A stretch of DNA of 64,000 nt from Sulfurimonas paralvinellae (GTDB taxonomy: Bacteria > Campylobacterota > Campylobacteria > Campylobacterales > Sulfurimonadaceae). The position numbers and the translations under genes were made by a program. The stretch lies in the NCBI RefSeq assembly GCF_014905135.1, contig NZ_CP041406.1, forward strand, positions 1,550,001-1,614,000, read 5' to 3'. Position 1 is the first letter of the stretch; each line of letters starts with the position of its first letter. The notes beneath the pieces are model-generated. The model ran no database searches, had not been told where the DNA came from, and saw nothing but the letters and a program-made list of their open reading frames with translations. Below are positions 1-63,246 of the stretch, in pieces.

Positions 1-1161
1 GAAATAAGGTTCAAAGATAGAATCTATATTCTCTTGTGAAATACCACCTGCGTTGTCGGCTATCTCTATAACAACCTCTTTATGTCTGCTAAAGATATTG
101 ATGCCAATATGAGGATTTTTGATATTGCGTGAGACAAGTTCGTCAACAGCATTGTTGATGATATTTAAAAGAACCTGTATCAATTCGTTCTGATATGTAG
201 CGACAACAATTCGCTGCTTCACATTGAATCTGATTTCTACCCGTGTCTTTTTTAATCTCGGTTCAATAAAAGAAATAGCCTTTTTTACAAGTTCATTGAT
301 ATCAACTGTCGCAATCTCTTTATTTGGTCTGAAATAGGTTTGAAAATCATCAATGGTTTCAGAGAGATAAACAACAGTATCACTGATATTTTCAAGTGCA
401 CTATCGAGTTCTGTATCAGGTATCTCTTCTCCTAGTAGTTTTTTTACCTGAAGGTTGGAGATATTGAGCGTTACAGTTGAGAGCGGTTGACGCCACTGAT
501 GGGCAATCATAGAGATCATCTCTCCCATCACGGCCTGTCTTGACTGCAATGTCAGCATCTTGTCTTTTTTCTGCATCTCTTTTATCTGCCGTTCCAACTG
601 TTCTTGCTGCTGCAATATCAGTCGTTTTGATTCAATCATTTTATATTTATAGAAATAGACGATCAAACTGACGATCACTAGTGCAAAGACAATATAAAAA
701 ACCTGAAAGAAGCTGTATTTGACAGGTATGTAAGGCTGCAGTGGTGCGATTAGAATCATGCCGATTAAGATTAAAAACCATACAATGGTCACTCTGTCAT
801 CAACAAGATAGAGCATTACGATAGGATAGGTGTATATCCAGACAAATTTCATCTGCGTTGGATCAGTGACATATATCAACAGTATCAACAGAGTCGTACC
901 TATGGTCGTAACAGACATAGAAACAAAAGTATAATACTGCTTACTGCGCCTTAAAAGAAAGAACGCAATGATGTTAAAAACGAAAAGTGAAAATTCAAAC
1001 CATGCCAAAGCACTGAAATGGTTGATAATAAAACCATAAATATAGGCGATAGAAGATGTTATAAGAGCTATATTTATCATCTGAAATCGACTGCGCTGTT
1101 CGATCTCATCTTTTTGAAACTGGTGACCGCTAACAAAAATATTTCTCAATGACATCTGCAT
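1..1161 (-). CDS. Membrane sensor histidine kinase, C-terminal end cut by window edge
   Basis: Two-component sensor kinase. The gene continues to the first base of the window without a stop, so the end of the ATPase domain is missing. The N-terminal half has about five hydrophobic segments (roughly residues 25-175), then a short coiled linker, a HisKA-type dimerisation helix with the phospho-acceptor in AHQWRQPL, and a HATPase with the N-box NIINNAVDEL and the start of the G-box (IADNAGG). The AHQWRQPL form of the H-box is common in Campylobacterota kinases. ATG codons at 1161 and 1155 are in frame; I chose 1161 because a purine-rich stretch sits about 5 bases before it. It lies 11 bases downstream of pabB on the same strand, so it may be co-transcribed. 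No response regulator is visible nearby and the ligand is unknown. Confidence 0.85.
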   Translation of the reverse strand, partial: MQMSLRNIFVSGHQFQKDEIEQRSRFQMINIALITSSIAYIYGFIINHFSALAWFEFSLFVFNIIAFFLLRRSKQYYTFVSMSVTTIGTTLLILLIYVTDPTQMKFVWIYTYPIVMLYLVDDRVTIVWFLILIGMILIAPLQPYIPVKYSFFQVFYIVFALVIVSLIVYFYKYKMIESKRLILQQQEQLERQIKEMQKKDKMLTLQSRQAVMGEMISMIAHQWRQPLSTVTLNISNLQVKKLLGEEIPDTELDSALENISDTVVYLSETIDDFQTYFRPNKEIATVDINELVKKAISFIEPRLKKTRVEIRFNVKQRIVVATYQNELIQVLLNIINNAVDELVSRNIKNPHIGINIFSRHKEVVIEIADNAGGISQENIDSIFEPYF

Positions 1162-1172
1162 CCGTTTCTCTC

Positions 1173-2111
1173 TTAAGGAAGATATATCTTATCTAGCATC
1201 TCTTCATATTCACTTACAGCATCACTGTCAAGCGTAATGCCGCCCCCGCTTTTATAGACATAACCATCTCTTGTTTTTTCAATAAAACGGATCATCACCC
1301 CGCTATCGAAGCTTTGTCCGTCAAACAGACCAAAAACACCGCTGAAAAATCCCCGCTCATACATTTCTGTCTTCTCTATTATATCCAAAGTACTCTTCTT
1401 TGGCGCACCGCTGATACTACCGGCGGGAAGCAGTGAATGCAGTATATCTCCAAGATGCTCACGCCAATCTTTGGGAAGTACGCCAGAGATATGTGAACTT
1501 ACCTGCCACAGCTCTTTTTCTCCTGCTTGAATTTTTTGTGTATAACGAAAACGATCAACCTTCACATCTCTTGCAACAATCGAGAGATCATTGCGTAGCA
1601 GATCAACGATCATAATATGCTCAGCCATCTCTTTAGCATTGGCTAAAATTTTCTCCTCTGCGTGAGGTATCGCCGCATCTATGGTTCCCTTCATCGGAAA
1701 TGTATGAATGATATCATCATTTATCTGCACAAACTTTTCAGGAGAAAAGCAGACGAACTCATCTTTGTAACGAAGTTTGTAATGTGCATTGGCAAGCGCA
1801 TATATCTCTTGAAGAGAAAGCTCAGTGTCAATAACAGTCGGCTGCGTGAGATTTAAAATGTAGGTATTACCTGAACGTATCTCCTCAATAATGGCATCAA
1901 ACTTTTTTTTATACAATGCAAAATCGAGGGGAGATTTCTTTAAAAAATGTGGATGTGCTTTGTAAACATACTCTTCACAAATAGCAAACTCTATATCACT
2001 CTTTTTGAGTTCATCAAGCGTAAAAACTTCTACATTCTCTGCTTTAAAATCACTCAAAAACAAAAAAGGAGTTCCCTCACGTGAGAGGGCATTTATTTTT
2101 TCAAAAGGCAT
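1173..2111 (-). CDS. pabB: Aminodeoxychorismate synthase component I (PabB-type chorismate-binding enzyme)
   Basis: Converts chorismate and ammonia to 4-amino-4-deoxychorismate for folate synthesis. The protein (312 aa) is essentially only the chorismate-binding catalytic domain. It shows GNTYILNLT, FPMKGTID, the lysine/glutamate region IMIVDLLRNDL, the motif PAGSISGAPK and the final SGGGITLDS block. Large TrpE/PabB proteins are about 450 residues or more; the short form lacking the N-terminal subdomain is usual for epsilonproteobacterial PabB. The gene lies 8 bases from the end of pyrB, so pyrB-pabB are probably one transcript, and folP is also in this window. Anthranilate synthase TrpE is the alternative, but the length and the lack of neighbouring trp genes argue against it. 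Confidence 0.85.
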   Translation of the reverse strand: MPFEKINALSREGTPFLFLSDFKAENVEVFTLDELKKSDIEFAICEEYVYKAHPHFLKKSPLDFALYKKKFDAIIEEIRSGNTYILNLTQPTVIDTELSLQEIYALANAHYKLRYKDEFVCFSPEKFVQINDDIIHTFPMKGTIDAAIPHAEEKILANAKEMAEHIMIVDLLRNDLSIVARDVKVDRFRYTQKIQAGEKELWQVSSHISGVLPKDWREHLGDILHSLLPAGSISGAPKKSTLDIIEKTEMYERGFFSGVFGLFDGQSFDSGVMIRFIEKTRDGYVYKSGGGITLDSDAVSEYEEMLDKIYLP

Positions 2112-2119
2112 CTCTGCGT

Positions 2120-3841: not shown

Positions 3842-4901
<1,060 letters not shown>

Positions 4902-5684: not shown

Positions 5685-6419
5685 ATGACAAACAAACAAA
5701 AAATCACCATCGAGTATAAGTATCGCGGCAGTATCGAACTGCCGGACACTCCTCACTCAAAAGATATCTTCTTTCGTGTTAAACAGGCTTATGCAAACCA
5801 TGAAAAGATGGGTGTGCATCTTCTTTTCTCACGCAATAAGCTTCAACAGCTCAAAAAATACCAAAAGGGTGCTGCGGAAAATGAACTCTTGGAGTTGGAT
5901 TTTTACATTAACATGGGTGAGATACTTGGCTTTGAGACAAAAGATGCACAAAAATTAAAACAATCCATTATCCTTATCAACGATACTGCCCATACAGGCT
6001 TTAACATCACCAAACGTCTCAAGCTCATCAACAAAAAAAAGCCCTCTCACGCAAAGAAGAGTTACCTCTTTTGGGATATTGAGAACTTTTCAAGTATCGC
6101 GTCCATCTTCAATGATGTCATAGAACCCTATAACATAGACGATAAGAACATATTTCTAGCAGCAAACCCTGATTCACTCTACTTAAAAAAAGCGGAGTGG
6201 GAAGCAAATCTCTATGATTATGGAAAAACGCTCAACTCTTTTGAATTTATAAAGTGTGACCATGGAAAGAATGTAGCAGATGATGTTTTGCTGCGTGAGA
6301 TGCAGAAACTGCACTTGAAAAACACAAATATCTTTATACTCACCTTTGACAGAGAGCTAAAAGAGCGTTTCACGCAAGAGGTGGATAAAAGCAACAACCT
6401 CTATATCTTGGGCAAATAA
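5685..6419 (+). CDS. NYN/PIN-like domain protein, putative RNase
   Basis: The C-terminal half (residues about 124-244) looks like a NYN/PIN-fold nuclease. It has an aspartate at the end of the first strand (LFWDIENFSS, D131), an acidic pair in the middle (KNVADDVLLREM, D199-D200) and another aspartate after the last strand (FILTFDREL, D222). This spacing of acidic residues is what these metal-dependent RNases use. The N-terminal 120 residues are lysine-rich and not assigned. The usual GDSDF block is replaced by TFDREL, so activity is not certain. It follows the 217-aa unknown gene by 8 bases and ends 15 bases from ruvX (convergent). Confidence 0.7.
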   Translation: MTNKQKITIEYKYRGSIELPDTPHSKDIFFRVKQAYANHEKMGVHLLFSRNKLQQLKKYQKGAAENELLELDFYINMGEILGFETKDAQKLKQSIILINDTAHTGFNITKRLKLINKKKPSHAKKSYLFWDIENFSSIASIFNDVIEPYNIDDKNIFLAANPDSLYLKKAEWEANLYDYGKTLNSFEFIKCDHGKNVADDVLLREMQKLHLKNTNIFILTFDRELKERFTQEVDKSNNLYILGK

Positions 6420-6824: not shown

Positions 6825-8165
6825 CTATTTTCCAAGACAAAAAGAGCCGAACATCTTGTCAAGCATCTCATCATTTTCAAACGGGCGTGTTATGCTTGCC
6901 ATTGCCTTGACGGCTTCATTGAGATGAAAAGAGAAAATTTCAAGTTCTTGTGACTCAAGCGGTTCATACGCCTCTTCAATATTACGCATCGTCTCCCTCA
7001 CCGCACTGATCTGACGCTCCGAAATCAGCATGATCTCATCACTGCTGTTACTACTGTCCATAATGGCTTGCAGCTTTGCAACAAGAGAAGAGACATCCTC
7101 TTTGGAATTGAGTTCAAGATCGAAATCCATACCCTCAAGTAGAAATTTCTGCGGCAGATCGACTTTGTTTTTAATGATGATCTTCTCTTTATCGGCTGCG
7201 TGAGCATGCAACAGTTCGACGATCTGGCTATCCTCATCATCAGCCTCACGTGAGCCGTCAAAGAGAGCGATGACGATATCACTCTGTTTAATAGCATCGA
7301 GACTTCTCTCTATTCCTATGCGTTCTATCTCATCATCAGCCTCACGGATTCCTGCCGTATCAACGATTCGGATAAGGTGTGTGCCGATCTTCACCTGTTC
7401 TTCAATAGTATCACGTGTCGTTCCCGCTATATCACTGACTATGGCACGATTATAATTCAGCAACGCATTTAAAAGGGAGCTTTTACCGACATTCGGTTTT
7501 CCAATTATAGCTACACGAAAGCCCTGCATCAAGCCTGCGCGTGACTGCGATGCCATCAATGTTTTTTGCAGCAGCTTATACAGTTCATCGAGTTTTGCTC
7601 TTATCTGCGCAACCAAATCTGTTGGCAGATCCTCTTCTGCATAATCGATCGTCACTTCAGAGTAAGCAAGTATATGAATTATCTCATCTCTGACCTGCTC
7701 GATGAACTCTTTAAGTGAGCCTTTCATCTGAGCGGCAAGTATCTTCGCCGCATCTTCACTCTTTGCCTCTATGAGTTGTGAGATAGCTTCTGCTTCGCTG
7801 AGATCTATTCTTCCGTTAAAAAAAGCCCGTTTGGAAAACTCGCCGGCATTGGCAAGGCGTGCACCTGCATCCAAAGCTGCCTTGAGAATACTCTGTGCAA
7901 CGATATAACCGCCATGACACTGGATCTCGACAACATCCTCTGCAGTAAAAGAGTGCGGCCCTTTGAAATAAATAACGATAGACTCATCAATAAGTTCACC
8001 ATCAGCATTGTAAATATTTGTCAGCGTTGCATATCTGTTTTGGAAATTTTCTTTTTTGGAGAGTTTTTTTGCGATTGAGAATGACTCAGCGCCGCTGAGT
8101 CTAATTATTGCAATAGAGCCAATGCCATTTGCAGTGGCAACGGCTGCTATAGTATCATTTTCCAT
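6825..8165 (-). CDS. mnmE: tRNA modification GTPase MnmE
   Basis: With MnmG it installs the carboxymethylaminomethyl group on U34 of certain tRNAs. At 446 aa it has the N-terminal folate-binding domain (DTIAAVATANGIGSIAIIRLSG), a helical domain, and an inserted G domain with GKPNVGKSS (about residues 225-233), DIAGTTRD and DTAG. The C-terminal end is CLGK, the MnmE formyl-folate Cys motif. It follows jag by 2 bases and abuts ruvX, in a tight operon. Confidence 0.97.
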   Translation of the reverse strand: MENDTIAAVATANGIGSIAIIRLSGAESFSIAKKLSKKENFQNRYATLTNIYNADGELIDESIVIYFKGPHSFTAEDVVEIQCHGGYIVAQSILKAALDAGARLANAGEFSKRAFFNGRIDLSEAEAISQLIEAKSEDAAKILAAQMKGSLKEFIEQVRDEIIHILAYSEVTIDYAEEDLPTDLVAQIRAKLDELYKLLQKTLMASQSRAGLMQGFRVAIIGKPNVGKSSLLNALLNYNRAIVSDIAGTTRDTIEEQVKIGTHLIRIVDTAGIREADDEIERIGIERSLDAIKQSDIVIALFDGSREADDEDSQIVELLHAHAADKEKIIIKNKVDLPQKFLLEGMDFDLELNSKEDVSSLVAKLQAIMDSSNSSDEIMLISERQISAVRETMRNIEEAYEPLESQELEIFSFHLNEAVKAMASITRPFENDEMLDKMFGSFCLGK

Positions 8166-8167: not shown

Positions 8168-9037
8168 TCAGTTCGTGTGGTAATCATTTACCAGAATATA
8201 TTTAAGTCCGTCCCGAGTTGAACGGATAACGACATATTTTTCCGGATAACGCTCACGCAGCTCTTTGAGTGCGATCTGAACGAGAACACCATCAAGAATT
8301 TTTGTTTGTGCACGGCCGTCTCTGTCGATATTTTCACATACTGACGTGAGATAACGGCCGACGGACTCTTCCTGATTTTTCAAAAATTCTGCGATCTCCA
8401 GACGAAGCTGTACATCATATTTTGTATTTATCCAGTTAAAGAGCATATAAGAGAGTGCTTTGTAACGGTACCCTTCTTTTCCTATGAGCAGTGCTGCATC
8501 TTCACCTTTAAACTCTACAAGCAGTGTCTCATTGTCATATGGGCTAACTTCAATGGTATCGATCTCGAAACATATCAGCTTAAAAAGGTCATTGATCTCT
8601 TTTTGCACTTCAACTGCAATGGCATCGATGTCAACGGAAACTTCTTTTTCGATATTCTCTTCATCATAAGCGTCATCATAATCTGCCGTATAGTCCAGCC
8701 CACTTGCCAAATCTTCCTCTAACTCTTCTTCATCCTGATCACTCACAAAAGAGGTCGGCATGATAGTGTCATTTAAGAATGTCGGGCTTATTTCTTCCTC
8801 TCTAACAACAGGCTTCTCTTTTTTTGGAGATACTTGTTTTGGAGTATTTACTTCATTCTTGACCTGTTTTGATTTATCAATCGTTGCAACAATGATTGCC
8901 GGCTTTTTAAAAAGTCCCAAAAAACCGCCGCTTGGAGCTTGTACAACTTCAACAGCCATCTCCGTAACGGAACATTTTAGTGTAGCTGCTGCATCTTTGT
9001 AGGCTTCTTCAAGGGTTACAGCTTCTATCTTAATCAT
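8168..9037 (-). CDS. jag: Jag/KhpB family KH-R3H RNA-binding protein
   Basis: RNA-binding protein usually encoded beside yidC. The product is 289 aa. It has a Jag N-terminal domain (residues 1-50, with the GFLGLFKKPA motif), then an acidic low-complexity linker rich in Asp/Glu (about 75-130), then a KH domain (about 150-220, with LIGKEGYRYKALSYML in place of the usual GxxG loop) and a C-terminal R3H domain (RxxxH-like, ending in ILVNDYHTN). The long acidic linker is longer than in Firmicute KhpB. Neighbours are yidC (2 bases) and mnmE (2 bases). Confidence 0.88.
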   Translation of the reverse strand: MIKIEAVTLEEAYKDAAATLKCSVTEMAVEVVQAPSGGFLGLFKKPAIIVATIDKSKQVKNEVNTPKQVSPKKEKPVVREEEISPTFLNDTIMPTSFVSDQDEEELEEDLASGLDYTADYDDAYDEENIEKEVSVDIDAIAVEVQKEINDLFKLICFEIDTIEVSPYDNETLLVEFKGEDAALLIGKEGYRYKALSYMLFNWINTKYDVQLRLEIAEFLKNQEESVGRYLTSVCENIDRDGRAQTKILDGVLVQIALKELRERYPEKYVVIRSTRDGLKYILVNDYHTN

Positions 9038-14258: not shown

Positions 14259-15131
14259 CTACTTGAGTATACCTTTGTCAATATTTTTATATCTTGGTAG
14301 CATAGAGGCATTGCCACTCACACCGCCACTATGTATATAAAGGATTCTCTCATCAGTTTGTTCAAGAAGTGTCTGCCACATCAAAGGAGCGTAGAGCAGA
14401 TCAAATTCAATACCTCCAGATTTGAGCTTTTGATACATCTCATAAAACTCCGGATAAGGCTTTGCAAAATGATACTTTTTCTTTGATTCTAAAATATGAA
14501 GATTTTTCGGCAGTTTTCCAAGTGCGAGCATCTGTTCTTTTAGATAGCTGACATCACCGACACTCGGCGTTGTATAGATCCTATACTCCGGCAGTGCCAA
14601 TGCTAAAAAGTATGCTGTCGTTCCTGTTCCCGAAGGCGTTGCCAATGATTGAATATCTTTATGCTCACGCAGCTGTTCGCGCAGCTCATCTGCCAAGACT
14701 TCAAGACCTTCTTTTGCCTCTGTTACCGCCCCGCCCTGATCGAGTATAAAAATTTTTTCATCAAGGTTTAGCCGTAAAGATGCTATAAAATCTCTATAGA
14801 GTTCATGCTCTATTTCATGATGCGTCATTCCTAGAGCAAGTGCTGTCGCAAAATTTCCAAGAGTGTTCTCTCGTTGTTGTCTACTTAGAGGTTTGGAGTA
14901 ATAGATAAAATTCCAACCTTTTTGCCTACACATAGCTGCAATTGCAAGCATTGCATTGGACTGTGTACCGCCATAAGAGATAATTGTGTGGTAAAGTTCT
15001 TTTGGTGTTTGTAGAAGAGTGTAGAGTTTTCTGTATTTGTTTCCTGCCAAATAAGGGTCAATGAGATCATCCCTTTTGACAAGAAACTCTCTTGTGTCTA
15101 AAATAATTTTAGACAGAGGAGAGAGTTGCAT
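14259..15131 (-). CDS. PLP-dependent ACC deaminase / D-cysteine desulfhydrase family protein
   Basis: Fold-type II PLP enzyme of the 1-aminocyclopropane-1-carboxylate deaminase/D-cysteine desulfhydrase group. The protein (290 aa) has VKRDDLIDPYLAGNKYRKL near the N terminus, with the PLP lysine in GNKYRK, then ISYGGTQSNAM (phosphate/substrate loop) and ATPSGTGTTAYFLA (glycine-rich PLP phosphate cup). True ACC deaminases are about 338 residues, so this shorter form is more likely a D-cysteine desulfhydrase-like or uncharacterised deaminase; the substrate cannot be read from sequence. It starts 6 bases after the PPIase gene, so the pair is likely co-transcribed. Confidence 0.75.
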   Translation of the reverse strand: MQLSPLSKIILDTREFLVKRDDLIDPYLAGNKYRKLYTLLQTPKELYHTIISYGGTQSNAMLAIAAMCRQKGWNFIYYSKPLSRQQRENTLGNFATALALGMTHHEIEHELYRDFIASLRLNLDEKIFILDQGGAVTEAKEGLEVLADELREQLREHKDIQSLATPSGTGTTAYFLALALPEYRIYTTPSVGDVSYLKEQMLALGKLPKNLHILESKKKYHFAKPYPEFYEMYQKLKSGGIEFDLLYAPLMWQTLLEQTDERILYIHSGGVSGNASMLPRYKNIDKGILK

Positions 15132-19229: not shown

Positions 19230-20582
19230 TCAACGCAAAGTTTTTAAATAGAATTTTCCATTTTTCACAGTAAAAACGGCACTTGATATATCTGTTCTTC
19301 TACTTGCTTTTATACTCTTTTGAAAATTGTTCGAAGATGAGTAGAGTTTTCCTCTAGATACTTTTGGATCACCAAAGACCATATGCATTGCCTGTGATGC
19401 CATTGCATCTGCAATACTTCTCACATTCTGTCTCTTTTTCGACAACGATTCTTTTATAAGCAGTGTTGTCAGTGCAGCCACTTTTTGCTCGCCTGTTATT
19501 TTTGTATTGAAGATAATCTTATCATACTCTGTTGATGCGGCTCGTACAGGCATGACAAGTGCAAAATTTTTCGCATGATTCAAAGCAAAATATATGCCTT
19601 CCGTCGCATCTGTATGCTTATTTTGCTTTATGATAGGACCGTCATACAGTCCCGTTTTCTTATTATACGCATACGCTACACTGCAGTTTGAGTTATATCT
19701 GTTCTTTTTTAGCTTTGTACAGAGTACAGGTAAATTGAAATGTATATCTTTATATCTGCTATAGTGCACTTGAAAATATTTTTGATATTTTTTAAAAGGG
19801 TTGGAGGTATAAAACTCTTTTTCCTTAGGCAGTCTCCAGTAATTGACCATCGAATTTGTCTTGAGTTTACTCAGTTTGGCAACGACAACACCTTTTTGGT
19901 TTTTCACGCCGGCTTTATACTCTGTCACTTCATTGTTGGATTTAAAAAGGAAATTTCTGCCGCGATACCTGAAGTATCCGCTGTATATCAATGTATCGAG
20001 TTTTGTTTCATAGATCTTCGGCCATGGCTTGCCCTTTGCAAAAACTGCATCTTTTACAATCATGCGTGGTTTTTTTTGTAAAATATAATCAACATAAGCA
20101 CTCGGCATTGCCCATATAAGTTTACTTTTTTTATCATATACCAAAGAGAAAAGATCATGCTGATTTTTCCACTCTATTTTTGTAACATACTTAAAATAAC
20201 TTGTGTCATATGGATTTTTAATGGTATGCAGGGTTACAGGCAGTACAAAATCTTCTTGAATGACTATCCATTTTTTATATTTTTGATATCCCTGCTTTGT
20301 AACTTCTATAAGATACTTACCTGGTTTTAAAAGAATATTGTCATGATATTTTGGTTTTATGTTGAGTATTCGAACACGAGCACCTTGAGGCGCTTTTACA
20401 TACAATGTATACTGCTGCGTGAGCGTATGTGCTGAAGTTTTGGCACTCTCTTTTGTTTGATTGCTCTCCTTCAGTGCTGTATCCGTGAGAACAACTGGAG
20501 CAGGCTTCTCCTGCATACAGCCCTGTAAAATAAGAACTAATAAAACCAAAGCCGGCAGATATGTAAAGAGTCTCATAAACAT
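19230..20582 (-). CDS. Lipoprotein with PEGA-like and Lcl/DUF1566-like regions
   Basis: A 450-aa predicted lipoprotein (lipobox LQGC, Cys at residue 22). Residues about 59-118 look like a PEGA domain (KAPQGARVRILNIKPKYH, then a KPGKYLIEVTKQGYQKY block), a beta-fold seen in surface proteins. The middle region (LIWAMPSAYVDYI ... YWRLPKEKEFYT) resembles the DUF1566/Lcl C-terminal fold. The C-terminal part has AL-rich and SxxR segments with no assignment. Its exact role is unknown. It ends near the small lipoprotein (convergent) and starts 1 base from the end of cmoA, so it may be transcribed with it. Confidence 0.6.
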   Translation of the reverse strand: MFMRLFTYLPALVLLVLILQGCMQEKPAPVVLTDTALKESNQTKESAKTSAHTLTQQYTLYVKAPQGARVRILNIKPKYHDNILLKPGKYLIEVTKQGYQKYKKWIVIQEDFVLPVTLHTIKNPYDTSYFKYVTKIEWKNQHDLFSLVYDKKSKLIWAMPSAYVDYILQKKPRMIVKDAVFAKGKPWPKIYETKLDTLIYSGYFRYRGRNFLFKSNNEVTEYKAGVKNQKGVVVAKLSKLKTNSMVNYWRLPKEKEFYTSNPFKKYQKYFQVHYSRYKDIHFNLPVLCTKLKKNRYNSNCSVAYAYNKKTGLYDGPIIKQNKHTDATEGIYFALNHAKNFALVMPVRAASTEYDKIIFNTKITGEQKVAALTTLLIKESLSKKRQNVRSIADAMASQAMHMVFGDPKVSRGKLYSSSNNFQKSIKASRRTDISSAVFTVKNGKFYLKTLR

Positions 20583-41812: not shown

Positions 41813-41821
41813 CGTAAACTT

Positions 41822-42811: not shown

Positions 42812-42932
42812 CTTGAAACTTTTTGTAAATTTGTGAAACTATATCCTAAATATATTAAATAAATAATTTCATGACACTATGTCATAAAAATTTATAACAA
42901 TTTTTCATGTGCTTATTTTAAGATAATTTTAG

Positions 42933-42938
42933 TATAAT
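42933..42938 (+). promoter_or_regulatory. -10 box of the rpsF-ssb-rpsR promoter
   Basis: TATAAT lies about 105 bases before the rpsF start, with a T-rich region upstream. The long 5' leader (about 42945-43042) could hold r-protein autoregulation. Confidence 0.55.
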
Positions 42939-43042
42939 TGCGCGTTCCTTTCTCTTTGTAATCTCACAATTGAGACTATATTTAGATCCGAAAGGGAAAC
43001 ATGAAGCCAGTCAATGGCAATACCAAGAGGAGATCATACTAT

Positions 43043-43465: not shown

Positions 43466-43495
43466 TAGCAAACGCTATAAAAAGAAGGAAAACTT

Positions 43496-44068
43496 ATGTT
43501 CAATAAAATAATTTTAGTTGGAAACCTAACGCGTGATATCGAACTCAGATATTCTCAAAGCGGCATGGGCATCGCAAAAAGTGCTATCGCTACAAGCCGT
43601 AAATTCACTAGCAATGGTGAGAAAAAAGAGGAAGTCTGTTTTGTAGACATCACTTTCTTCGGAAGAAGTGCCGAAGTTGCCAACCAATACCTTCGCAAAG
43701 GAAGTAAAATCCTTGTAGAGGGAAGATTAAACTTTGAACAATGGGTTGACCAAAATGGACAAAAAAGATCAAAACACTCTGTAATCGTTGAGACTATGCA
43801 GATGCTTGACTCACGCAGTGACTCTCAAGGCGGTGGATACAATGCACCGGCAAGTAACGGTGGAGCAGATTATGCAGCACCTGCACAAGGGCAACCGCAA
43901 AGCTATCAGGCACCACAGCAGCAACAAAGCTATGGACAACCGGCACAGCAGCAACAGCAACAACAAAGTTATCAACAGCCATCACCGGCACAGGAACAAA
44001 GCCGTACAATGCCAAGTCCTGCCGATGTTCCAGTAATTGATATTGATGAAGATGAAATTCCATTTTAG
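43496..44068 (+). CDS. ssb: Single-stranded DNA-binding protein
   Basis: Coats single-stranded DNA in replication, repair and recombination. The 190-aa protein starts MFNKIILVGNLTRDIELRYS and has an OB-fold to about residue 105. A long Gln/Pro/Ala/Tyr-rich disordered linker follows (about 112-175), and the C-terminal tip is DIDEDEIPF, the acidic tail that binds partner proteins. It lies between rpsF (30 bases) and rpsR (27 bases). Confidence 0.97.
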   Translation: MFNKIILVGNLTRDIELRYSQSGMGIAKSAIATSRKFTSNGEKKEEVCFVDITFFGRSAEVANQYLRKGSKILVEGRLNFEQWVDQNGQKRSKHSVIVETMQMLDSRSDSQGGGYNAPASNGGADYAAPAQGQPQSYQAPQQQQSYGQPAQQQQQQQSYQQPSPAQEQSRTMPSPADVPVIDIDEDEIPF

Positions 44069-44520: not shown

Positions 44521-47199
44521 ATGAAAATAAAAGCATATGCTCTCATAATTTGGTCTCTTTTACTTACAGCCAGTCTATCTGCACAAACATTAGAAAAAAT
44601 TTCGCTACAACTCCTTTGGAAGCATCAGTTTGAGTTCGCCGGTTTTTATATGGCACAAGAGAAAGGCTTTTATAAAAATGCAGGATTGGATGTAAATTTT
44701 TTAGAGTATGAAAATGGTGTGGACGTCGTAAAAAACATTGCAAATGGTAAAACAGAATATGGCATTGCTTATCAAGATGCTCTGTTGGACAAACCATCTA
44801 GTAAAAATATTGTATTACTTGCCGCTATATATCAATCTTCTCCTCATGTGCTGATAACGTTAAAATCATCCAATATCAAGACACTTCAAGATTTCAAAAA
44901 TAAAAAAATCATGATGAGTCTTGCGGCAAAAAATTCTGCCTCTTTTATGGCAATGCTACGTTCTAATGGAGTTTCACTCAAAGAGATGATAGTTGTAAAA
45001 CCTACATATAATGTTGAGAGTCTTATAGAAGGCAAAACAGATATTATTACTTCTTACATCTCAAATGAGCCATATATACTAGATAAAAAGGGAATTGCCT
45101 ATGATATATGGGATCCAAGAGATTACGGTTTCGATGTATATAATGATTTATTGATTACTTCAAAACAGGAGTTGAAGAATCATCCAAAAAGAGTAGAAAA
45201 TTTCAGGAAGGCCTCTTTAAAGGGTTGGGAATATGCATTTTCACATATTGATGAAACGATTAATGTTATTTTACAAAAATATAATACACAGCATAAAACG
45301 AAAGATGAACTTTATTTTGAAGCTCAAAAATTAAAAAAACTTGCTTATGAAAACAATACTAAAATAGGAACTGTAGATAAATATAAAATACAAAGAATTA
45401 TAGATATATATAATGTTTTGGGATTAACCAAGGGTAAAATAAATTTAGATACTTTCATTTATAAACAGCCTTTACATTATGCTTTAACAGAACAAGATAA
45501 AGAGTACTTAAACAAGAAAAAAACAATTACTATGTGTGTAGATCCTGATTGGATGCCGTTTGAAAAACTTTCTAATGGAAAACACATTGGTATGAGTGCT
45601 GAGTATTTTGAACATTTTAAAAAGTTTTTAAATATACCTGTAAAAGTGATTTCTACAAAGAGTTGGGAACAGTCCTTGGAATATGCAAAAAGCAGAAAAT
45701 GTGACATACTTTCACTACTGATGAAAACACCTCAAAGAACTAAATATCTAAATTTCACAGATCCTTATTTGAAAATTCCTATAGTGATGGCAACAAAAAC
45801 GGATGCTCCTTTTACCACAGATTTTACTTCACTTAAAAATAAAAAGATAGGACTTCCAAAAGGATATGCTTTTATAGAGATTCTCAAGACTAAATATCCA
45901 AATTTAAAAATAGTAGAAGTAAAAAACCTGCAGGATGGGCTCAATCAAGTTAGAGAAGGAAAAATATACGGTTACATCGGTTCACTGGCTACTATCGGCT
46001 ATGCATTTAGCAAGCAATATACCGGGGAGTTAAAAATCGCAGGGAAGTTTGACGGTACCTGGGATTTGGGAATAGGTGTTAGAAATGATGACAACCGGCT
46101 TTTACATATAATGCAAAAGGCAGTTCACAGTGTTGATGAAGCAAGCAGGGAAAAAATACTAAATAATTGGCTTGCAATTAAATATGAAAAGGGAATTGAT
46201 TATTCATTAGTTTGGAAAATAATATTACTTTTTAGTGCTGTTTTCTTTATTATACTCATCTTTTATTTTAAAATGACAAAATTAAAGAACAAGATACAAA
46301 AGCAAAATGACGAAATAAGTACCAACCATGCACTACTGATAACACTTTTCAATACCATTCCGAATCCTGTTTTTTATAAAGATAAAAATGGTGTTTATCA
46401 AAATTGCAACCATGCTTTTTCCCAAAAAATAATTGGAGTACCAAAAGAGAAGATTATTGGCCGTTCCTTACAAGACTTAGAAGAGTATATTCCTCCTAGT
46501 TTGGCATTGATATATCAACAAAAAGATGAAGAATTATTAAAAAGCAGAGGTACACAAAAATATGAAGCGCAGGTACAGTGTGCAGATGGAATGCTCCGTG
46601 ATTATATTCTAAATAAAGCCGTTATACTTTCTGATACAAATGAAGTACTGGGCATAGTGGGTATTATGCTGGATATTACAGAGGTAAAAGAAAAAGAAAA
46701 AGAATTACTTACTCTTGCGACTGTTGACTTCTTGACAAAACTTTATAATAGACGTTATTGTATGCAAACAGGTGAAAAGCTCTTTATGCTGGCAAAACGG
46801 CATAAACAGCTTATGAGTGTCATTATGATAGATATAGACGATTTTAAAAATATTAATGATACTTACGGACATAAAATGGGTGATAATGTTCTTGAAAGTT
46901 TAGCATTGACAATTTCTAAAAATATTAGACAGAGTGATGTGGCCTGTCGCTTTGGTGGGGAAGAGTTTCTTATTCTTTTACCACAAACGGACAAAGAAAA
47001 TACTTTTAACATTGCACAAAAAATTCGTCAAGAGATAAAAAAGACAGCAGATGTCAATGCTTTACACATAACAGCAAGTTTTGGTGTATCGCAGTTAGAT
47101 ATAGAAAAAGACAATAATTTAGAAGAATTGATAAAGAGAGCTGATGAAGCTCTTTATATTGCTAAAAACAAGGGAAAAGACAAAGTAGTCACAGTTTAA
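44521..47199 (+). CDS. Diguanylate cyclase with two periplasmic solute-binding domains and PAS
   Basis: An 892-aa membrane sensor likely to make c-di-GMP. Order: signal peptide (1-21); an NMT1/THI5-type substrate-binding domain (about 25-310, LLWKHQFEFAGFYMAQEKGFY); a family-3 solute-binding domain (about 328-558, TMCVDPDWMPFEKL); one membrane helix (about 563-584); PAS (about 605-725); and GGDEF (about 730-892) with an intact RFGGEEF active site. An RxxD I-site (RQSD) sits five residues before it, implying product inhibition. The two ligand domains in series are unusual. It is monocistronic; a TATAAT-like box is not obvious. Confidence 0.88.
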   Translation: MKIKAYALIIWSLLLTASLSAQTLEKISLQLLWKHQFEFAGFYMAQEKGFYKNAGLDVNFLEYENGVDVVKNIANGKTEYGIAYQDALLDKPSSKNIVLLAAIYQSSPHVLITLKSSNIKTLQDFKNKKIMMSLAAKNSASFMAMLRSNGVSLKEMIVVKPTYNVESLIEGKTDIITSYISNEPYILDKKGIAYDIWDPRDYGFDVYNDLLITSKQELKNHPKRVENFRKASLKGWEYAFSHIDETINVILQKYNTQHKTKDELYFEAQKLKKLAYENNTKIGTVDKYKIQRIIDIYNVLGLTKGKINLDTFIYKQPLHYALTEQDKEYLNKKKTITMCVDPDWMPFEKLSNGKHIGMSAEYFEHFKKFLNIPVKVISTKSWEQSLEYAKSRKCDILSLLMKTPQRTKYLNFTDPYLKIPIVMATKTDAPFTTDFTSLKNKKIGLPKGYAFIEILKTKYPNLKIVEVKNLQDGLNQVREGKIYGYIGSLATIGYAFSKQYTGELKIAGKFDGTWDLGIGVRNDDNRLLHIMQKAVHSVDEASREKILNNWLAIKYEKGIDYSLVWKIILLFSAVFFIILIFYFKMTKLKNKIQKQNDEISTNHALLITLFNTIPNPVFYKDKNGVYQNCNHAFSQKIIGVPKEKIIGRSLQDLEEYIPPSLALIYQQKDEELLKSRGTQKYEAQVQCADGMLRDYILNKAVILSDTNEVLGIVGIMLDITEVKEKEKELLTLATVDFLTKLYNRRYCMQTGEKLFMLAKRHKQLMSVIMIDIDDFKNINDTYGHKMGDNVLESLALTISKNIRQSDVACRFGGEEFLILLPQTDKENTFNIAQKIRQEIKKTADVNALHITASFGVSQLDIEKDNNLEELIKRADEALYIAKNKGKDKVVTV

Positions 47200-49793: not shown

Positions 49794-50417
49794 TTATATT
49801 TCCTTTAGTATAAGTGACAAATCTTTTTCTTCAATGATAATATTTGCCTCACGTTTGAGTATATCTCGTGCACGAAATGCTATGCGCGTGCCTGCGTGAG
49901 CGAACATAGAAAGATCATTCGCACCGTCACCGCAGACAAGCGTCTCCTCTTCACTGACACCCAAGACTGCCTGCAATCTCGTGAGCATGTCTCCTTTTGA
50001 AAAGTTGTACATCATATCACCGCCGACTAGACCTGTCAATTTTCCCTCTTTTACATGCAGAGCATTGGAAAAATCGGCATGATATCCCAAAATATCTTTT
50101 GCATACGATGTAGCCGTACGGAAACCTCCACTGAAACAGACCACTTTCATGCCTCTGTTTTTCAGCTCAGTTATCGTCTCCTTGGCTCCGGGCATATAAG
50201 GAAGATTATGTGAGATTCTCTCAACGACAGAAAAATCAAGTCCTTTTAAAAGACCGACTCTCTGCTGCAAAGACTCAAAAAAATCAAGTCTGCCGCTCAT
50301 CGCTTCTTCCGTTATCTTGGCCACTTCTTCACCAATTCCAAGCTCTTCAGCAAAAAAGTCTATGGTTTCTCCGTCCATCAATGTAGAATCAAAGTCAAAT
50401 ACTGCAAGTTTTAGCAT
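49794..50417 (-). CDS. serB: Phosphoserine phosphatase
   Basis: HAD-family phosphatase that makes L-serine from phosphoserine. The 207-aa protein has the catalytic motif FDFDSTLMDGETID, CFSGGF (motif II), and GDGANDLSMFAHAG (motif III/IV). The N-terminal ACT regulatory domain found in some SerB is absent, giving the short form. It runs divergently to the MTHFR-family gene and is followed by the 106-aa hypothetical. Confidence 0.95.
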   Translation of the reverse strand: MLKLAVFDFDSTLMDGETIDFFAEELGIGEEVAKITEEAMSGRLDFFESLQQRVGLLKGLDFSVVERISHNLPYMPGAKETITELKNRGMKVVCFSGGFRTATSYAKDILGYHADFSNALHVKEGKLTGLVGGDMMYNFSKGDMLTRLQAVLGVSEEETLVCGDGANDLSMFAHAGTRIAFRARDILKREANIIIEEKDLSLILKEI

Positions 50418-50471: not shown

Positions 50472-51383
50472 TTGTTTGATACACTCATAGAGAAATTACA
50501 AAACAATACCTACATCACACTTGAGACGACACCGGGACACTCTGCAAAGTTCACGCCTATCATTGATAAAATAGAATCTTTGGGCCTGCATACAATGGTG
50601 GACGGTTTTTCAACAACGGACAATCCCCTTGCAAAACTGAAGTTCAACGCTCTTTTTGGCGCAAGACTGCTACAGGAAAGATTCAACAAACCTGTCATTG
50701 CAACAATGAGTATGCGTGATCGTAATAAAATTGCCCTGCAGTCAGACCTGCTTGGTGCAAATGAATTCGATATACGTGCCATATTGGCACTTACAGGTGA
50801 TCCTGCAAATATCTCTGACCAGCCAAATGCAAAAGGTGTCTTTGAAGCAGACTCGACACTCCTACTTGATATCATTTCAGCTTTTAATTCAGGTATGGAT
50901 TACTCGGCAAAACCTTTTAAAGAGCGCCCTTTACAGATATATCCGTTTGCCGTTGTCAACTCTTATGCAAAGAATCCAAAGACATTGCAAAAAAAGATGC
51001 AAAAAAAGATAAAACACGGGGCACTTGGCATCATCACACAACCTGTCTATGACATTGAAAATGCAAAACAGCTCTTAGAGCTTAAAGAAAAAGCCAATAA
51101 AGAGTGCTGCAGTGAGAACAAAAGTGCAGAACTTATCATGGGAGTCTTTCCGATCACCAAACTCCGTACAGCTCAATTTTTGGCTTCACATGTTCCGGGC
51201 ATCAATGTACCGCCATGCTGGCTCGATAAACTGCGTGAGGCAAATGCCAAAGGCGCCCAGGAAGAATATAAGATCGGGTTTGAGCTGAGCAAAAAACTCT
51301 TTGAAGATCTCAAAGCACTCCATCCGAAGATTCACCTTATGACAGCAAATCAATTTCAAATAGCAAAAGATATACTCGTATAA
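50472..51383 (+). CDS. Methylenetetrahydrofolate reductase family protein
   Basis: A 303-aa TIM-barrel protein of the MetF (methylenetetrahydrofolate reductase) family. It has YITLETTPGHSAK (catalytic Glu region), MRDRNKIALQSDLLGA, ILALTGDPANIS, GALGIITQPVYDIENA and a MGVFPI block. It is divergent from canonical MetF (no SFEFFPP start), so a related one-carbon or flavin role is possible. The start is TTG at 50472, 6 bases after AGAGGA. It precedes serS by 15 bases, probably co-transcribed. Confidence 0.65.
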   Translation: MFDTLIEKLQNNTYITLETTPGHSAKFTPIIDKIESLGLHTMVDGFSTTDNPLAKLKFNALFGARLLQERFNKPVIATMSMRDRNKIALQSDLLGANEFDIRAILALTGDPANISDQPNAKGVFEADSTLLLDIISAFNSGMDYSAKPFKERPLQIYPFAVVNSYAKNPKTLQKKMQKKIKHGALGIITQPVYDIENAKQLLELKEKANKECCSENKSAELIMGVFPITKLRTAQFLASHVPGINVPPCWLDKLREANAKGAQEEYKIGFELSKKLFEDLKALHPKIHLMTANQFQIAKDILV

Positions 51384-52668: not shown

Positions 52669-53526
52669 CTATTTTGCGCTGTAACGCATGACAAAGATAA
52701 AAAGGCTCAATGAAGCCATCATCACGCCAATTCCTCCTATAAGATAAAAAGCCTGTAGCATTTGAGTATAATCTTTTAACACTATTTTAAAAACGACTAA
52801 AAGTGCTTCAATCGAAAGTGCAATAATGATAGAGATGAAAAACCTTGCTAAAAGTCTGTTCTCAAGGTTGTTATTTCTACTGAGACTTTTGTAAAAGACC
52901 TCATGTTCGAGTATTGTTTTGGAAAGATCAAAGATAGCAAGCGCCAGTGTCAAGGCTATGATTGAATGAAAAATACCAGCAAGAACGTCATTGCTAGTGC
53001 GTGAGAGTATTTCCCATATACTCGAAAAAGCATAAACAATGAGTAATAGTGATAAAAAAGAGAGTAAAAAGCCGAAAAAAGAATAGAAAGCTTTTGTATA
53101 CTTTGAAAAATATTCATTGCCTTCTATCATTGAGAGTTCTTTGAGAAGTGTATAGAGTTCAAAGTCAAACACATAATACTCATCCTTATACTTGCGAACA
53201 ACAGTTAAATAAGGTGTCGCACTGCGTGAATTTACATAAACGTTTGATATGTAGATATCATCATCCCGAAAACGTATTCTTTCAAGAAGATGCTTTTTAT
53301 TGGAACCAAGGTACGTTGTATCTGTTTCATCCTTGGTATATAGCGGAGTTGACTGACGCAAATCTTTACTGATTATATATGTGGCTCTAAGTGCGGGATA
53401 GAGTTGAAATATAGATTTTTCAACCATCTCTGAATATACTGCAAGGTCAATGCTTTCAATCATTGTACTTAAAGAGTTCTCAATAAAGGCATATTGTTTT
53501 TTGTAAATTGTTACGATCTCTTTCAT
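52669..53526 (-). CDS. Cache/PDC-like sensor with conserved four-helix membrane domain
   Basis: A 285-aa protein with an N-terminal sensor-like domain (about 1-135; DDIYISNVYVNSRSATPYLTVVRKY is PDC/Cache-like) and four membrane helices (about 150-280). The second half has AIFDLSKTILEHE and ISIIIALSIEALLVVFKIVL, repeated almost identically in the 61272 gene, so they are paralogs. No kinase, GGDEF or MCP output domain is present, and the protein has no membrane helix before the sensor part, which would leave it cytosolic. Function unknown. It lies between serS and pflB, on the opposite strand. Confidence 0.65.
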   Translation of the reverse strand: MKEIVTIYKKQYAFIENSLSTMIESIDLAVYSEMVEKSIFQLYPALRATYIISKDLRQSTPLYTKDETDTTYLGSNKKHLLERIRFRDDDIYISNVYVNSRSATPYLTVVRKYKDEYYVFDFELYTLLKELSMIEGNEYFSKYTKAFYSFFGFLLSFLSLLLIVYAFSSIWEILSRTSNDVLAGIFHSIIALTLALAIFDLSKTILEHEVFYKSLSRNNNLENRLLARFFISIIIALSIEALLVVFKIVLKDYTQMLQAFYLIGGIGVMMASLSLFIFVMRYSAK

Positions 53527-53707: not shown

Positions 53708-56059
53708 ATGGCTGACGCACCAGAAGACATAATAATCATCGAAGACAGTGATGCCGCTTCCTATGACAGTGATTCAGGGTATTCGAGCGATGAATATTTA
53801 CAAGAAGAAGAGGCCAAAAGAAAAAAAATAATCCTTTTTGGCGGTCTTGCAATTATCGTAGTTCTCATCATTGCCATTACTATTATTCTTCTTACGCTCA
53901 AATCATCGAAAGAACATTCACAAATAAACATTACCGCTATTGATAAAAAGATAGAAGCAAGTAAACAAAAACCGACACTTGAACCAAGTAAACTTGAAAA
54001 TATGATTGCAAAAGCGAACTACCTCTATGCAAGCGGTTCAAAAGAAAAAGCACTGACACTCTATGAGCAGATTGCATCTTACAGTGAGGCTGTTTCTGAT
54101 TATAATCTGGGTGTAGCAGAACTCAAAGAGAAACAATTTGAAAAAGCGTTGCAAAGCTTTCAAAAAGCGATTGCAAATGATGAAAAACGCTGCGTGAGCG
54201 CTATCAATGCTGCCGTATGTTGTCTACACCTGCAAGATAAAGAGAATTTCAAATATTATATCGACCTCGCCTATGCTTATCTGCCTTATGAGATAGAATC
54301 GCCTCTTTACTCTTACTACTATACCCTTATAAGTTATTACAATAAAAACTATCTAGCTGCATTGAACTCCTTAAAAAATGCAACTTCTCATGAGTACCCA
54401 AATGTGCAAAATCATCTCTCAGCCAAGATCAATGCTCTTTATGAAAATGATTATGATGCCATAGAAGCGATGGAAAGAAAATCTGATGAACCCGAAGATT
54501 TTTCTTTAGGTCTGCTCTATGCAAGGATTGGTGACTTTTCTTTAGCCTCAAATCATCTCGAAGCCGCCATCTCCAAAGAGACACAACCGGTTCGAGCACC
54601 TCTTGCACTGGGCCTTGTCAATCTCAAAGCAGGTCATATTGCAAAAGCCGCAAAAAAGATCAAAGAGGTTACTGAGAAGTATCCTCAAGAAGTTTATAAA
54701 TACTACCCTGTTAAAGTCAAGCTCAAGGAGTCACTCTTTGATCCGCAAAAAGCGCAGCAAAACTACAGACATAAGATCCAACACTCTAAAAATGTTATGT
54801 ATCAAAAGATTTTTTATTTCTCTCCATACAAGATCTTTAATGCCAACCAAACTATCAGCTATATCAGAAAAGGAAATGCAAATATCTATATAGATAATGT
54901 CAAAAGTGCAAAAGAGTACCTTAAAAAGAGTGCTTCTTCTTCCTCAGTAAATATCGGCATTGTAAAAGCCATAAAAAAAGCACTCTCTTTTAAGATAAGA
55001 GAAGCCAATGAAGATCTCCAAAAGCTTGTGAAACTACAGCCTAAACACTCTATACTACAATATAATTTAGCCCTTACCTATGCTCAAATGGGCAATTTGA
55101 AAAAAGCACATGAGCATTTTTTACGTTCATACTATCTCGATGCAAAGAACTATCTCTCAGGTATCTATGCAGTTATGACTGCACAGCTTATAAACGTGAA
55201 ATACTATAAATTAAAATCAATTATCAAAGACTCCATAGCATTGGAGGAAGATGGAGAAGATGTAGATCTCTATAAAACACTGTTGCATCTTAGTGAAGGT
55301 GATTATCTCTCTGCTGTAGAGTGGCTGGACAGAGATTATAAACAGCGTCCTCTCTACCTTGCTCTTGATATTCTTATAGCAACGAAACTCTCAAAGATGG
55401 ATAAATCAAAAGAGTCTGCAAACAAACTGCTTCTTATGCAGCCAAATGACATTCTTCCAAATATCATATACATGGATACAGAATTCGCCGATCTTAAGAC
55501 ATCCGAATATGCAAAAGAGACGTTAAAATACCTTAAAGAGCACAGTTTTACCTATGATGATCTTTATTATGGTCCTTACATAACACGCTATCTTTTTATA
55601 CAGGAAAATCTTATCAGCGGGCGTCTTTACTTTTTAAGAAAACAGCTTAAAGAGGTGCTAGAGACGACAAATCAAGATACGCGTGATATTGAGAGTTCTT
55701 TAGCTCTGGTCTCTCTTTACAGTAAAGAGTTTGAAGAATCATACACGCTTTACAATCATCTTATCGATGAGCTCAAAGTTCGTGATGCTTACACACTTTA
55801 TCTTGGAGCTGTTGCATCAACTGCTGCAGGACATCATGAAAATGCCATTGCACTGCTTGAACTAGCGAAAATGAAAGATGGAAGTTTTTATGAAAGCAGA
55901 TATGCGCTTGCTCTGCTCTATATGGAGATCAATAACAATGACGGTGCTGTCATTCAGCTCTCACGTATACAAGAAGATGGATTTCAGTCACAATATTTTG
56001 AGTTTATGATAGACACGGATAAGCTGTTATTTCAGAAACAGCATCCGCAAAAAAAGTAG
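53708..56059 (+). CDS. pflB: TPR-repeat flagellar motor protein PflB
   Basis: Single-pass membrane protein with a TPR-rich periplasmic part, matching C. jejuni PflB (Cj0390, 820 aa), which scaffolds the flagellar motor and is needed for stator recruitment. The 783-aa protein begins with an acidic cytoplasmic tail (1-37), one membrane helix (about 41-64), then many TPR-like helical repeats such as SDYNLGVAELKEKQFEKALQ, ILQYNLALTYAQMGNLKKAH and YALALLYMEINNNDG. The main evidence is synteny with serS and the domain layout, not identity to a reference. A perfect hairpin lies in its leader. Confidence 0.82.
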   Translation: MADAPEDIIIIEDSDAASYDSDSGYSSDEYLQEEEAKRKKIILFGGLAIIVVLIIAITIILLTLKSSKEHSQINITAIDKKIEASKQKPTLEPSKLENMIAKANYLYASGSKEKALTLYEQIASYSEAVSDYNLGVAELKEKQFEKALQSFQKAIANDEKRCVSAINAAVCCLHLQDKENFKYYIDLAYAYLPYEIESPLYSYYYTLISYYNKNYLAALNSLKNATSHEYPNVQNHLSAKINALYENDYDAIEAMERKSDEPEDFSLGLLYARIGDFSLASNHLEAAISKETQPVRAPLALGLVNLKAGHIAKAAKKIKEVTEKYPQEVYKYYPVKVKLKESLFDPQKAQQNYRHKIQHSKNVMYQKIFYFSPYKIFNANQTISYIRKGNANIYIDNVKSAKEYLKKSASSSSVNIGIVKAIKKALSFKIREANEDLQKLVKLQPKHSILQYNLALTYAQMGNLKKAHEHFLRSYYLDAKNYLSGIYAVMTAQLINVKYYKLKSIIKDSIALEEDGEDVDLYKTLLHLSEGDYLSAVEWLDRDYKQRPLYLALDILIATKLSKMDKSKESANKLLLMQPNDILPNIIYMDTEFADLKTSEYAKETLKYLKEHSFTYDDLYYGPYITRYLFIQENLISGRLYFLRKQLKEVLETTNQDTRDIESSLALVSLYSKEFEESYTLYNHLIDELKVRDAYTLYLGAVASTAAGHHENAIALLELAKMKDGSFYESRYALALLYMEINNNDGAVIQLSRIQEDGFQSQYFEFMIDTDKLLFQKQHPQKK

Positions 56060-60660: not shown

Positions 60661-61272
60661 TTATAGTTCTATAAAATTTTTAAGTATTGCAAGCCCGTTT
60701 TTGTGGCTTTTTTCAGGGTGCGGCTGGATTCCCATAATATTACCGTGTGCCACTGCCGAAGTGAATTTATAGCCATAATACGTCTCACCGATAATATCTT
60801 CGTCATTTGCACATTTGACATGATAGGTATGTACAAAGTAGAGATAGTGTTCATCATCCAGCCCTTCAAAAAGAGGATGTTCCTTTGTAAACATTCTATT
60901 CCAGCCCATATGCGGTACTTTGAGCGGCTCTTCAAATTTTGCAGTATCAAAATGTTCGACACGGCCTTGAATAAGTCCAAGCCCTGCGTGAGAACCAAAC
61001 TCTTCAGAACTTTCAAAAAGCAGCTGCATACCGAGGCATATACCAAGCATTGGTTTGCCTGATGCGGCAAATGATTTAATGGAGTCTATCATATCCCGCT
61101 CACGCAGATGCTCCATCGCATCACCAAAAGCGCCGACTCCCGGCAATACAAGCTTATCATAAAGGTGAAATTTTTTCGGATCACTCTCTACGACTGTCTC
61201 TTTTCCCAGTTTTGCAAATGCATTTTGAACACTTGCCAAATTTCCCATGTTATAGTCAATTATCGCTATCAT
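60661..61272 (-). CDS. hisH: Imidazole glycerol phosphate synthase, glutaminase subunit
   Basis: Glutaminase subunit that feeds ammonia to HisF. The 203-aa class I amidotransferase starts [21 protein letters not shown], with [10 protein letters not shown], the nucleophile Cys in [12 protein letters not shown] and the His/Glu pair in HPEKS. HisF is not in the window. It overlaps the upstream sensor gene by 1 base and hisA follows 8 bases later. Confidence 0.95.
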
Positions 61273-62183: not shown

Positions 62184-62231
62184 ACCTCCTCATGATTTAG
62201 TCGAATTATATCAAAGATTTACTATTATTGG

Positions 62232-62237
62232 TATAAT
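62232..62237 (+). promoter_or_regulatory. -10 box directly before waaC
   Basis: TATAAT ends 7 bases before the ATG at 62245. It also overlaps an in-frame ATG at 62236. No ribosome-binding site is visible, suggesting a leaderless message. Confidence 0.45.
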
Positions 62238-62244
62238 GTCATCA

Positions 62245-63246
62245 ATGAATAAAGATATTAAAAAGATTGCCATTGTCAGGCTTTCAGCCCTCGGTGATAT
62301 TGTCAACAGCAGTATTGTTTTACAATTTATAAAAGAGTTCTATCCTCACGCAGAGATTTCATGGATAGTGGAAAATGCTTTTGCAGATATACTCAAAAAC
62401 GCAAAACATCTCGACCATATTCATCGCGTCGATCTCAAAAGATTTAAAAAAGAAAAAAAATTTAGCTTACTGAGCGAAGAGTACAAAAAACTAAAAAGCA
62501 TCGCTGAGTTTGACATTATCATAGACATGCAGGGACTTATTAAATCGGCCATAGTTTCTAGAATACTTGGAAAGAATACGCATGGCTTTGACAAACACTC
62601 AACGCGTGAGTCTTTAGCTGCTCTGTTTTACAATACAGCTTCAAACATCGCATATGAGACAAACGTAATTACCCGTAATGCAAAAGTCGTCTCCGATGCT
62701 TTAGGTATAAATATTACAGATACTATGATAGAAAATAAAGAGCCCGTTTTTAAAATAACAAAAGAGTTCGAGCTCAGAAGTGACATGAAAAATATTGCCT
62801 TTGTCATCGGAGCATCCTGGGAATCTAAACGCTACCCAAAAGAGAAGGTCGCTGAAGTTTGTGACGAGCTTGGGGAACAGTGCTACATAATCTGGGGAAA
62901 TGACAAAGAATTTGAAGATGCAGAGTGGATATGTAAGCACTCAGAGTATGCTACACTTGCACCGAAACTCACCTTAGATGAACTCATCTCTTTTATCTCC
63001 CATATGGATCTGCTTATGGGCAACGACACAGGACCGACACATATAGCATGGGCACAAAACATTCCATCTATCACGCTCTTAGGACCAACTACACTGCGAA
63101 TGATTGGACAAACACCTCAAAACATCAGTATAAAATCACCTTCCCATGTCAATATTTTAAAAATCGATAAAGATGATTTTTCGATCAAAGAGATCAAACC
63201 AGAGCAGATAATCTCTCATGCCAAGGAAATATTATGCAGCGTATAG
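62245..63246 (+). CDS. waaC: Lipopolysaccharide heptosyltransferase I
   Basis: GT9 family enzyme that adds the first heptose to Kdo in the lipopolysaccharide inner core. The 333-aa protein starts near KKIAIVRLSALGDIVNSSI with the family IVRLSALGDI motif, and has IDMQGLIKSAIVSRI, IGASWESKRYP and GNDTGPTHIAWAQNIPSITLLGPT. The ATG at 62236 overlaps the -10 box, so I start at 62245. It overlaps the next gene by 13 bases. Confidence 0.9.
   Translation: MNKDIKKIAIVRLSALGDIVNSSIVLQFIKEFYPHAEISWIVENAFADILKNAKHLDHIHRVDLKRFKKEKKFSLLSEEYKKLKSIAEFDIIIDMQGLIKSAIVSRILGKNTHGFDKHSTRESLAALFYNTASNIAYETNVITRNAKVVSDALGINITDTMIENKEPVFKITKEFELRSDMKNIAFVIGASWESKRYPKEKVAEVCDELGEQCYIIWGNDKEFEDAEWICKHSEYATLAPKLTLDELISFISHMDLLMGNDTGPTHIAWAQNIPSITLLGPTTLRMIGQTPQNISIKSPSHVNILKIDKDDFSIKEIKPEQIISHAKEILCSV

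Follow-up and report, generated by a model that had tools for sequence, protein, structure and literature searches.

A 64,000-nucleotide stretch of the Sulfurimonas paralvinellae chromosome (contig NZ_CP041406.1, positions 1,550,001 to 1,614,000; here called the window) raises the question of why a single octamer, TGCGTGAG, recurs so often within it. A sequence-only reading of the window had listed a Chi-like recombination signal, a DNA-uptake word, a methylation target and codon-pair bias as possible answers. In our view, TGCGTGAG is probably a DNA-uptake sequence peculiar to a small clade within Sulfurimonas, with dialects among congeners and with specificity that most likely lies in a minor pilin.

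Abundance and coding context of TGCGTGAG

The studied genome (G000) consists of 2,078,871 bases in two contigs. We calculated in-depth genome statistics for 464 kb, made up of 20 evenly spaced 20-kb stretches and the window, and examined a few targeted stretches in addition; other G-numbers denote compared genomes, and L-numbers denote sequence stretches. Chance expectations were obtained from dinucleotide shuffles and from an order-3 Markov model. The coding test used synonymous codons shuffled within genes, and the reversed pattern served as a control for TGCGTGAG counts.

The window contains 37 copies of TGCGTGAG, with 21 on the plus strand and 16 on the minus strand; the sequence-only reading had the same number on the minus strand but only 19 on the plus strand. 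The chance expectation was a mean of 1.36 in dinucleotide shuffles and 1.6 under the order-3 Markov model. By a wide margin, TGCGTGAG is the top over-represented 8-mer of the window. The whole genome has 962 copies (488 and 474 by strand), compared to 33 copies of the reversed pattern, for a density of ~1 per 2 kb on either strand. The enrichment also held in the 464-kb sample against an order-3 Markov expectation (210 copies versus 9.6), at ~22-fold.

The word is sharply defined. Variants with substitutions at positions 3 to 7 occur only at the chance level, and positions 1 and 8 are slightly tolerant. In the 464-kb sample, the extended consensus is YTGCGTGAGV, which adds one further base per side, with no wider flank and no flanking AT tracts; in the window, C precedes 23 of the 37 copies and there is no conservation further out. 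TGCGTGAG is not palindromic. Judged by GC skew, the origin is near the start of the contig and the terminus near 1.0 Mb. Relative to these positions, 121 copies are on the leading strand and 89 are on the lagging strand. Since the word includes four G and one C, a lean toward the leading strand is expected from GC skew alone, and the observed lean is no greater than GC skew predicts.

The 49.8-kb plasmid-like second contig has no copy of TGCGTGAG, compared to ~23 at chromosomal density, and L012, a stretch with 29% GC, likewise has none. Recently acquired DNA was thus free of the word where examined, in these few regions. The AT-rich part of the window at 44 to 48 kb also has no copies.

Nearly all sampled copies (201 of 210, ~96%) are inside open reading frames. 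As the sequence-only reading had noted for the window, they occupy several codon phases; in the larger sample, all five admissible frames are used, and the sixth frame holds TGA. Shuffling of synonymous codons gave 15.9 ± 3.1 copies, versus the 201 observed in coding sequence. The commonest coding context is Leu-Arg-Glu (69 of 201). This tripeptide occurs at 2.75 times its expectation in G000, with 73 of 107 cases encoded by CTGCGTGAG or TTGCGTGAG. Pro-His-Ala and Leu-Thr-Gln occur at 4.05 and 2.61 times expectation, respectively. For the same three tripeptides, G045 and G110/G131, which are sister species, have ratios of only 0 to 1.4.

Carriers and other words in related genomes

We searched 151 genomes of the family for TGCGTGAG and 397 genomes across the phylum for the 9-mer CTGCGTGAG. 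TGCGTGAG was clearly enriched in 4 of the 151 genomes, all of them close Sulfurimonas: G000, G019 (621 copies), G029 (757) and G141 (688). CTGCGTGAG was enriched only in G000, G019 and G029. A further genome outside both samples, G165, has four copies of TGCGTGAG in 12.7 kb. Among the genomes searched, TGCGTGAG is limited to Campylobacterota. We used LysC as the species marker for relatedness. LysC of the carrier G141 is 95% identical to that of G000; G045 is just as near (LysC, 95% identical), yet it has only 27 copies, approximately the number expected by chance. At aligned sites, carriers have many copies in common, and non-carriers differ at several bases. Comparison with related Sulfurimonas, which the sequence-only reading had proposed, showed that TGCGTGAG is clade specific and that congeners have other words.

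In many congeners, some other word reaches a density similar to that of TGCGTGAG. CTGCGTTT (counted as AAACGCAG, with the strands about equal) is found in ~18 genomes, with up to 2331 copies. TGGCGTTT is over-represented in G001, GGCATGTGGA in G076, G098, G100, G129 and G145, and TACATCCCA in G078. Most congener words exceed the synonymous shuffle several-fold and occupy several frames. CTGCGTGAG and CTGCGTTT have CTGCGT in common, and these two and TGGCGTTT have the core GCGT in common. A further candidate dialect, AGCATCTAT of G096/G122, was rejected on account of its frame use: 17 of its 24 copies are in the same frame. A palindrome, TACATGTA, is over-represented in G045, G110, G131, G133, G135, G057 and Sulfurospirillum, and may be a separate matter from words of the TGCGTGAG type.

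Some of these words have features of their own. GGCATGTGGA is >100-fold enriched (L164, L165, L188 and L283; G076, G098, G100 and G129) and, unlike TGCGTGAG, has a higher density in intergenic sequence than inside genes. TACATGTA(A) is ~20- to 50-fold enriched in many frames in L131-L135 (G045) and in L079, L090 and L074 (Sulfurospirillum); it is possibly a methylation-type (HIP-like) word or another uptake word. In L172 (G064), CATGAGC is over-represented beside CTGCGTTT (26 versus 3.1) and is perhaps a second word within that genome. In G000 itself, the two strands differ in their number of AAACGCAG copies (111 versus 30); this imbalance may point to a repeat array, perhaps CRISPR, in a part of the genome beyond the stretches examined.

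Candidate receptor and rival explanations

The competence genes comEA, comEC and dprA and pilins are present in the clade. In G000, a candidate minor pilin of 219 amino acids (G000:C1:1382211-1382867) is encoded directly behind comEA (a TIGR00426 match) and also adjoins an rRNA operon. In a comparison that covered 98 congeners, the closest relatives of this pilin are mostly in CTGCGTTT genomes (G134, 70% identity; G090, 65%; G064 and G164, 64%), in which LysC is distant (82% for G134, G064 and G090; 89% for G164). The pilin of the nearest species, G045, is only 46% identical. In the pilin tree, all GCGT-word genomes with a pilin sequence, except G167, form one clade that also includes G153 and G172 (Shimodaira-Hasegawa-like approximate likelihood ratio test [SH-aLRT], 93). 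A grouping of G000 with G045 and G110 is incompatible with the pilin data (p = 6e-11), as is the GCGT clade with the LysC data (p = 4e-42); in both cases the groups were chosen after the tree had been seen. The parsimony contrast is mild, at 3 changes versus 4. A second minor pilin, used as a control, showed no association with the word (p = 0.93, versus 1.7e-6 for the candidate), and positions 98, 32, 115, 134 and 179 of the candidate separate the two groups best, with statistics that ignore kinship in both instances. Every genome of the set that is assembled into one or two contigs has the candidate. It has a weak N-terminal match to the GspH model that is below the cut-off, and we do not claim GspH membership; a search of solved structures with the pilin profile matched the common pilin N-terminus only. 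Judged by covariation of sequences, word specificity most likely sits in this candidate minor pilin of the uptake pilus.

Two expectations about the pilin failed. A GCGT-type word was predicted for G172, whose pilin is 66% identical, and was not borne out in 15 kb; AAACGCAG is mildly raised in this genome (39 versus 8). The pilin was also expected to adjoin comEA in every genome, and comEA of G029 and G019 has no pilin beside it.

Two of the competence genes are disrupted in G000. The dprA gene (DNA processing, transformation; TIGR00732), at 41037-41812 on the minus strand of the window, is frameshifted: its N-terminal 200 codons occupy 41812-41213, and the remaining ~60 codons are in another frame at 41216-41037. 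In the relatives compared, dprA is a single frame of ~255 to 262 codons. In the chromosomal comEC gene (L223:18948-17668, minus strand), an in-frame TGA precedes the end of the gene by ~70 codons; relatives such as G029, G019, G045 and G110 have comEC intact. In view of these two lesions, G000 may recently have ceased to be competent, and its TGCGTGAG copies may be a recent relic of competence. A sequencing error is possible behind each single lesion. In the draft symbiont genome G141 (L331 and L238), frameshifts or stops break up both the candidate pilin gene and comEC, and the neighbouring genes compared are intact.

Several observations weigh against an uptake sequence read by this pilin. 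With comEC and dprA disrupted, uptake may not occur in G000 now. The draft carriers G029 and G019 yielded no full-length candidate pilin, and the pilin is frameshifted in the draft carrier G141. G172 and G153 have a GCGT-clade pilin, yet no word was seen in them; conversely, G167 has a GCGT-type word but a different pilin.

Among the alternatives, a methylation-linked word survives best, although we regard it as unlikely. A methyltransferase would read the word or its GCGTGA core, and coupled repair or uptake would multiply the word. The HIP1 octamer of cyanobacteria is a precedent: it is similarly abundant, is recognised by orphan methyltransferases that match it, gives way to alternate words in certain lineages, and tolerates changes at peripheral positions (PMC4390886), as TGCGTGAG does at positions 1 and 8. 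A second precedent, within the same phylum, is the RAATTY/CtsM system of Campylobacter jejuni, in which a short sequence decides which DNA enters the cell and uptake requires N6-methylated RAATTY, the only uptake signal of the phylum in the literature that we found (PMC10046745). The word TACATGTA of relatives is a palindrome, as would suit such a target. However, HIP1 is palindromic and the C. jejuni signal is a methylated degenerate palindrome, whereas TGCGTGAG is a non-palindromic 8-mer, which disfavours the methylation target of the sequence-only reading. The word is also missing from the plasmid-like contig of the same cell, where a methylase or repair system would act too, and an association with a pilin is not predicted. 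Two Campylobacter stretches (L098 and L100) are rich in words that contain RAATTY: TGTGAATTT in C. troglodytis and GAAATTTC in C. majalis.

A Chi-like signal read by AddAB or RecBCD is improbable. A frequent, mostly coding octamer with clade-specific words would fit, but the leading-strand lean is within the GC-skew expectation. Chi sites are not usually enriched as much as ~22-fold relative to a Markov model, nor do close relatives usually carry a different word or lack one. This option of the sequence-only reading is weakened on three counts: polarity is lacking, enrichment is very strong and dialects are clade specific. Slightly less probable still is a chromosome-organising or segregation word (KOPS, parS or SMC type) or the relic of a mobile repeat. 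The high copy number and a moderately clustered spacing (variance/mean, 1.54 in 4-kb bins) are consistent with it, but TGCGTGAG has no polarity, ~96% of copies are inside open reading frames, and the lack of a conserved flank beyond one base per side means that there is no repeat unit. Codon-pair or amino-acid bias, for which the lead of the Leu-Arg-Glu context speaks, is excluded to near certainty by the synonymous shuffle, by the use of both strands and all five admissible frames, and by tripeptides inflated in the carrier only and not in the sister species compared, and so fails the test that the sequence-only reading had itself set.

The DNA-uptake word is hence the best supported of the options, on the basis of the absence of polarity, the strong enrichment, the clade-specific dialects and the word-free plasmid-like contig. 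As a short non-palindromic tag, TGCGTGAG would have biased the transformation machinery toward DNA from the cell's own kind. A minor pilin at the uptake pilus would bind double-stranded DNA, preferentially at the word, and the bound DNA would be pulled in, passed to ComEA and ComEC, and then recombined. Biased uptake together with homologous recombination would spread the word through shared genes in every possible coding frame, and plasmid-like and island DNA would have remained word-free. A broader proposal, for and against which we find the balance even, is that an uptake-sequence system evolved independently in Campylobacterota, with fast turnover of dialects (CTGCGTGAG, CTGCGTTT, TGGCGTTT, GGCATGTGGA and perhaps TACATGTA), with specificity that moves between distant species together with the minor pilin (by transfer or convergence), and with the word left as a fossil where comEC and dprA are lost.

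To our knowledge, Neisseriaceae and Pasteurellaceae are the only families in which uptake sequences are well known, and a search of the open-access literature for uptake sequences in Sulfurimonas or Campylobacterota returned nothing relevant. The TGCGTGAG system would work like the DNA uptake sequence (DUS) of Neisseria and the uptake signal sequence (USS) of Pasteurellaceae, but by word and lineage it belongs to neither. Like TGCGTGAG, DUS is short and non-palindromic, occurs ~1 per 1 to 2 kb and is found in shared genes; Neisseria dialects have the core CTG in common, as Sulfurimonas words have CTGCGT or GCGT, and DUS specificity is tied to the minor pilin ComP (PMC3630211), for which the Sulfurimonas minor pilin would be the candidate counterpart. 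Unlike DUS, TGCGTGAG is not enriched between genes and is rarely paired, and the Sulfurimonas pilin has comEA and an rRNA operon as its neighbours. USS is also an octamer-scale word with divergent dialects, for which a minor pilin (ComN/PpdA) was nominated by covariation (PMC12616744); it differs from TGCGTGAG, which is without flanking AT tracts. FimT-type pilins (GspH/FimT) offer a minor pilin that acts in DNA uptake through its C-terminal region, and the source consulted reports no sequence specificity for them (PMC8897410); the Sulfurimonas pilin is below the GspH cut-off.

There is an old dispute on why uptake sequences exist: they may serve the choice of own DNA or be a side effect of a biased receptor. 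A genus in which several dialects occur beside near-relatives without a detected word and lineages whose competence genes are broken provides replicate natural experiments on the birth, change and decay of such words, and a receptor named by covariation is a testable candidate. The system also bears on recombination barriers between species of abundant sulfur-oxidising bacteria.

Copies and neighbouring features in the window

The uneven density described in the sequence-only reading was confirmed: 15 copies of TGCGTGAG lie within 33739-43817, and there are four gaps of at least 6 kb between copies. Upstream of this cluster, copies are found on the plus strand at 126-133, 1659-1666, 1843-1850, 2705-2712, 4763-4770, 6292-6299, 7197-7204 and 20416-20423 and on the minus strand at 5828-5835, 6046-6053, 8252-8259, 14664-14671, 20845-20852, 21136-21143 and 24003-24010.

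Within the cluster, several copies are common to other genomes. These are, on the plus strand, 33739-33746 (common to G029), 34438-34445 (G165), 36029-36036 (G141, G029, G019 and G165) and 40389-40396 (G141) and, on the minus strand, 37878-37885 (G141), 39829-39836 (G141, G029 and G019), 40040-40047 (G029 and G019) and 43810-43817 (G141 and G029). The cluster further includes 38149-38156, 38617-38624 and 42079-42086 on the plus strand and 38059-38066 on the minus strand. The three copies reported for the dprA locus are indeed inside or just behind dprA. Two of them, at 41666-41673 (minus) and 41689-41696 (plus; common to G141 and G029), form an inverted pair within the gene, with 15 bp between the arms; the third, at 41191-41198 (minus), is within the stretch carrying the displaced 3' part.

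Downstream of the cluster, copies are located at 49893-49900, 51232-51239, 52998-53005, 54191-54198 and 60985-60992 on the plus strand and at 61099-61106 and 62345-62352 on the minus strand. A gene for a fused NMT1-like/diguanylate cyclase sensor at 44521-47199 (33% GC) is without TGCGTGAG. It had no match in the available stretches of six relatives and so was possibly acquired.

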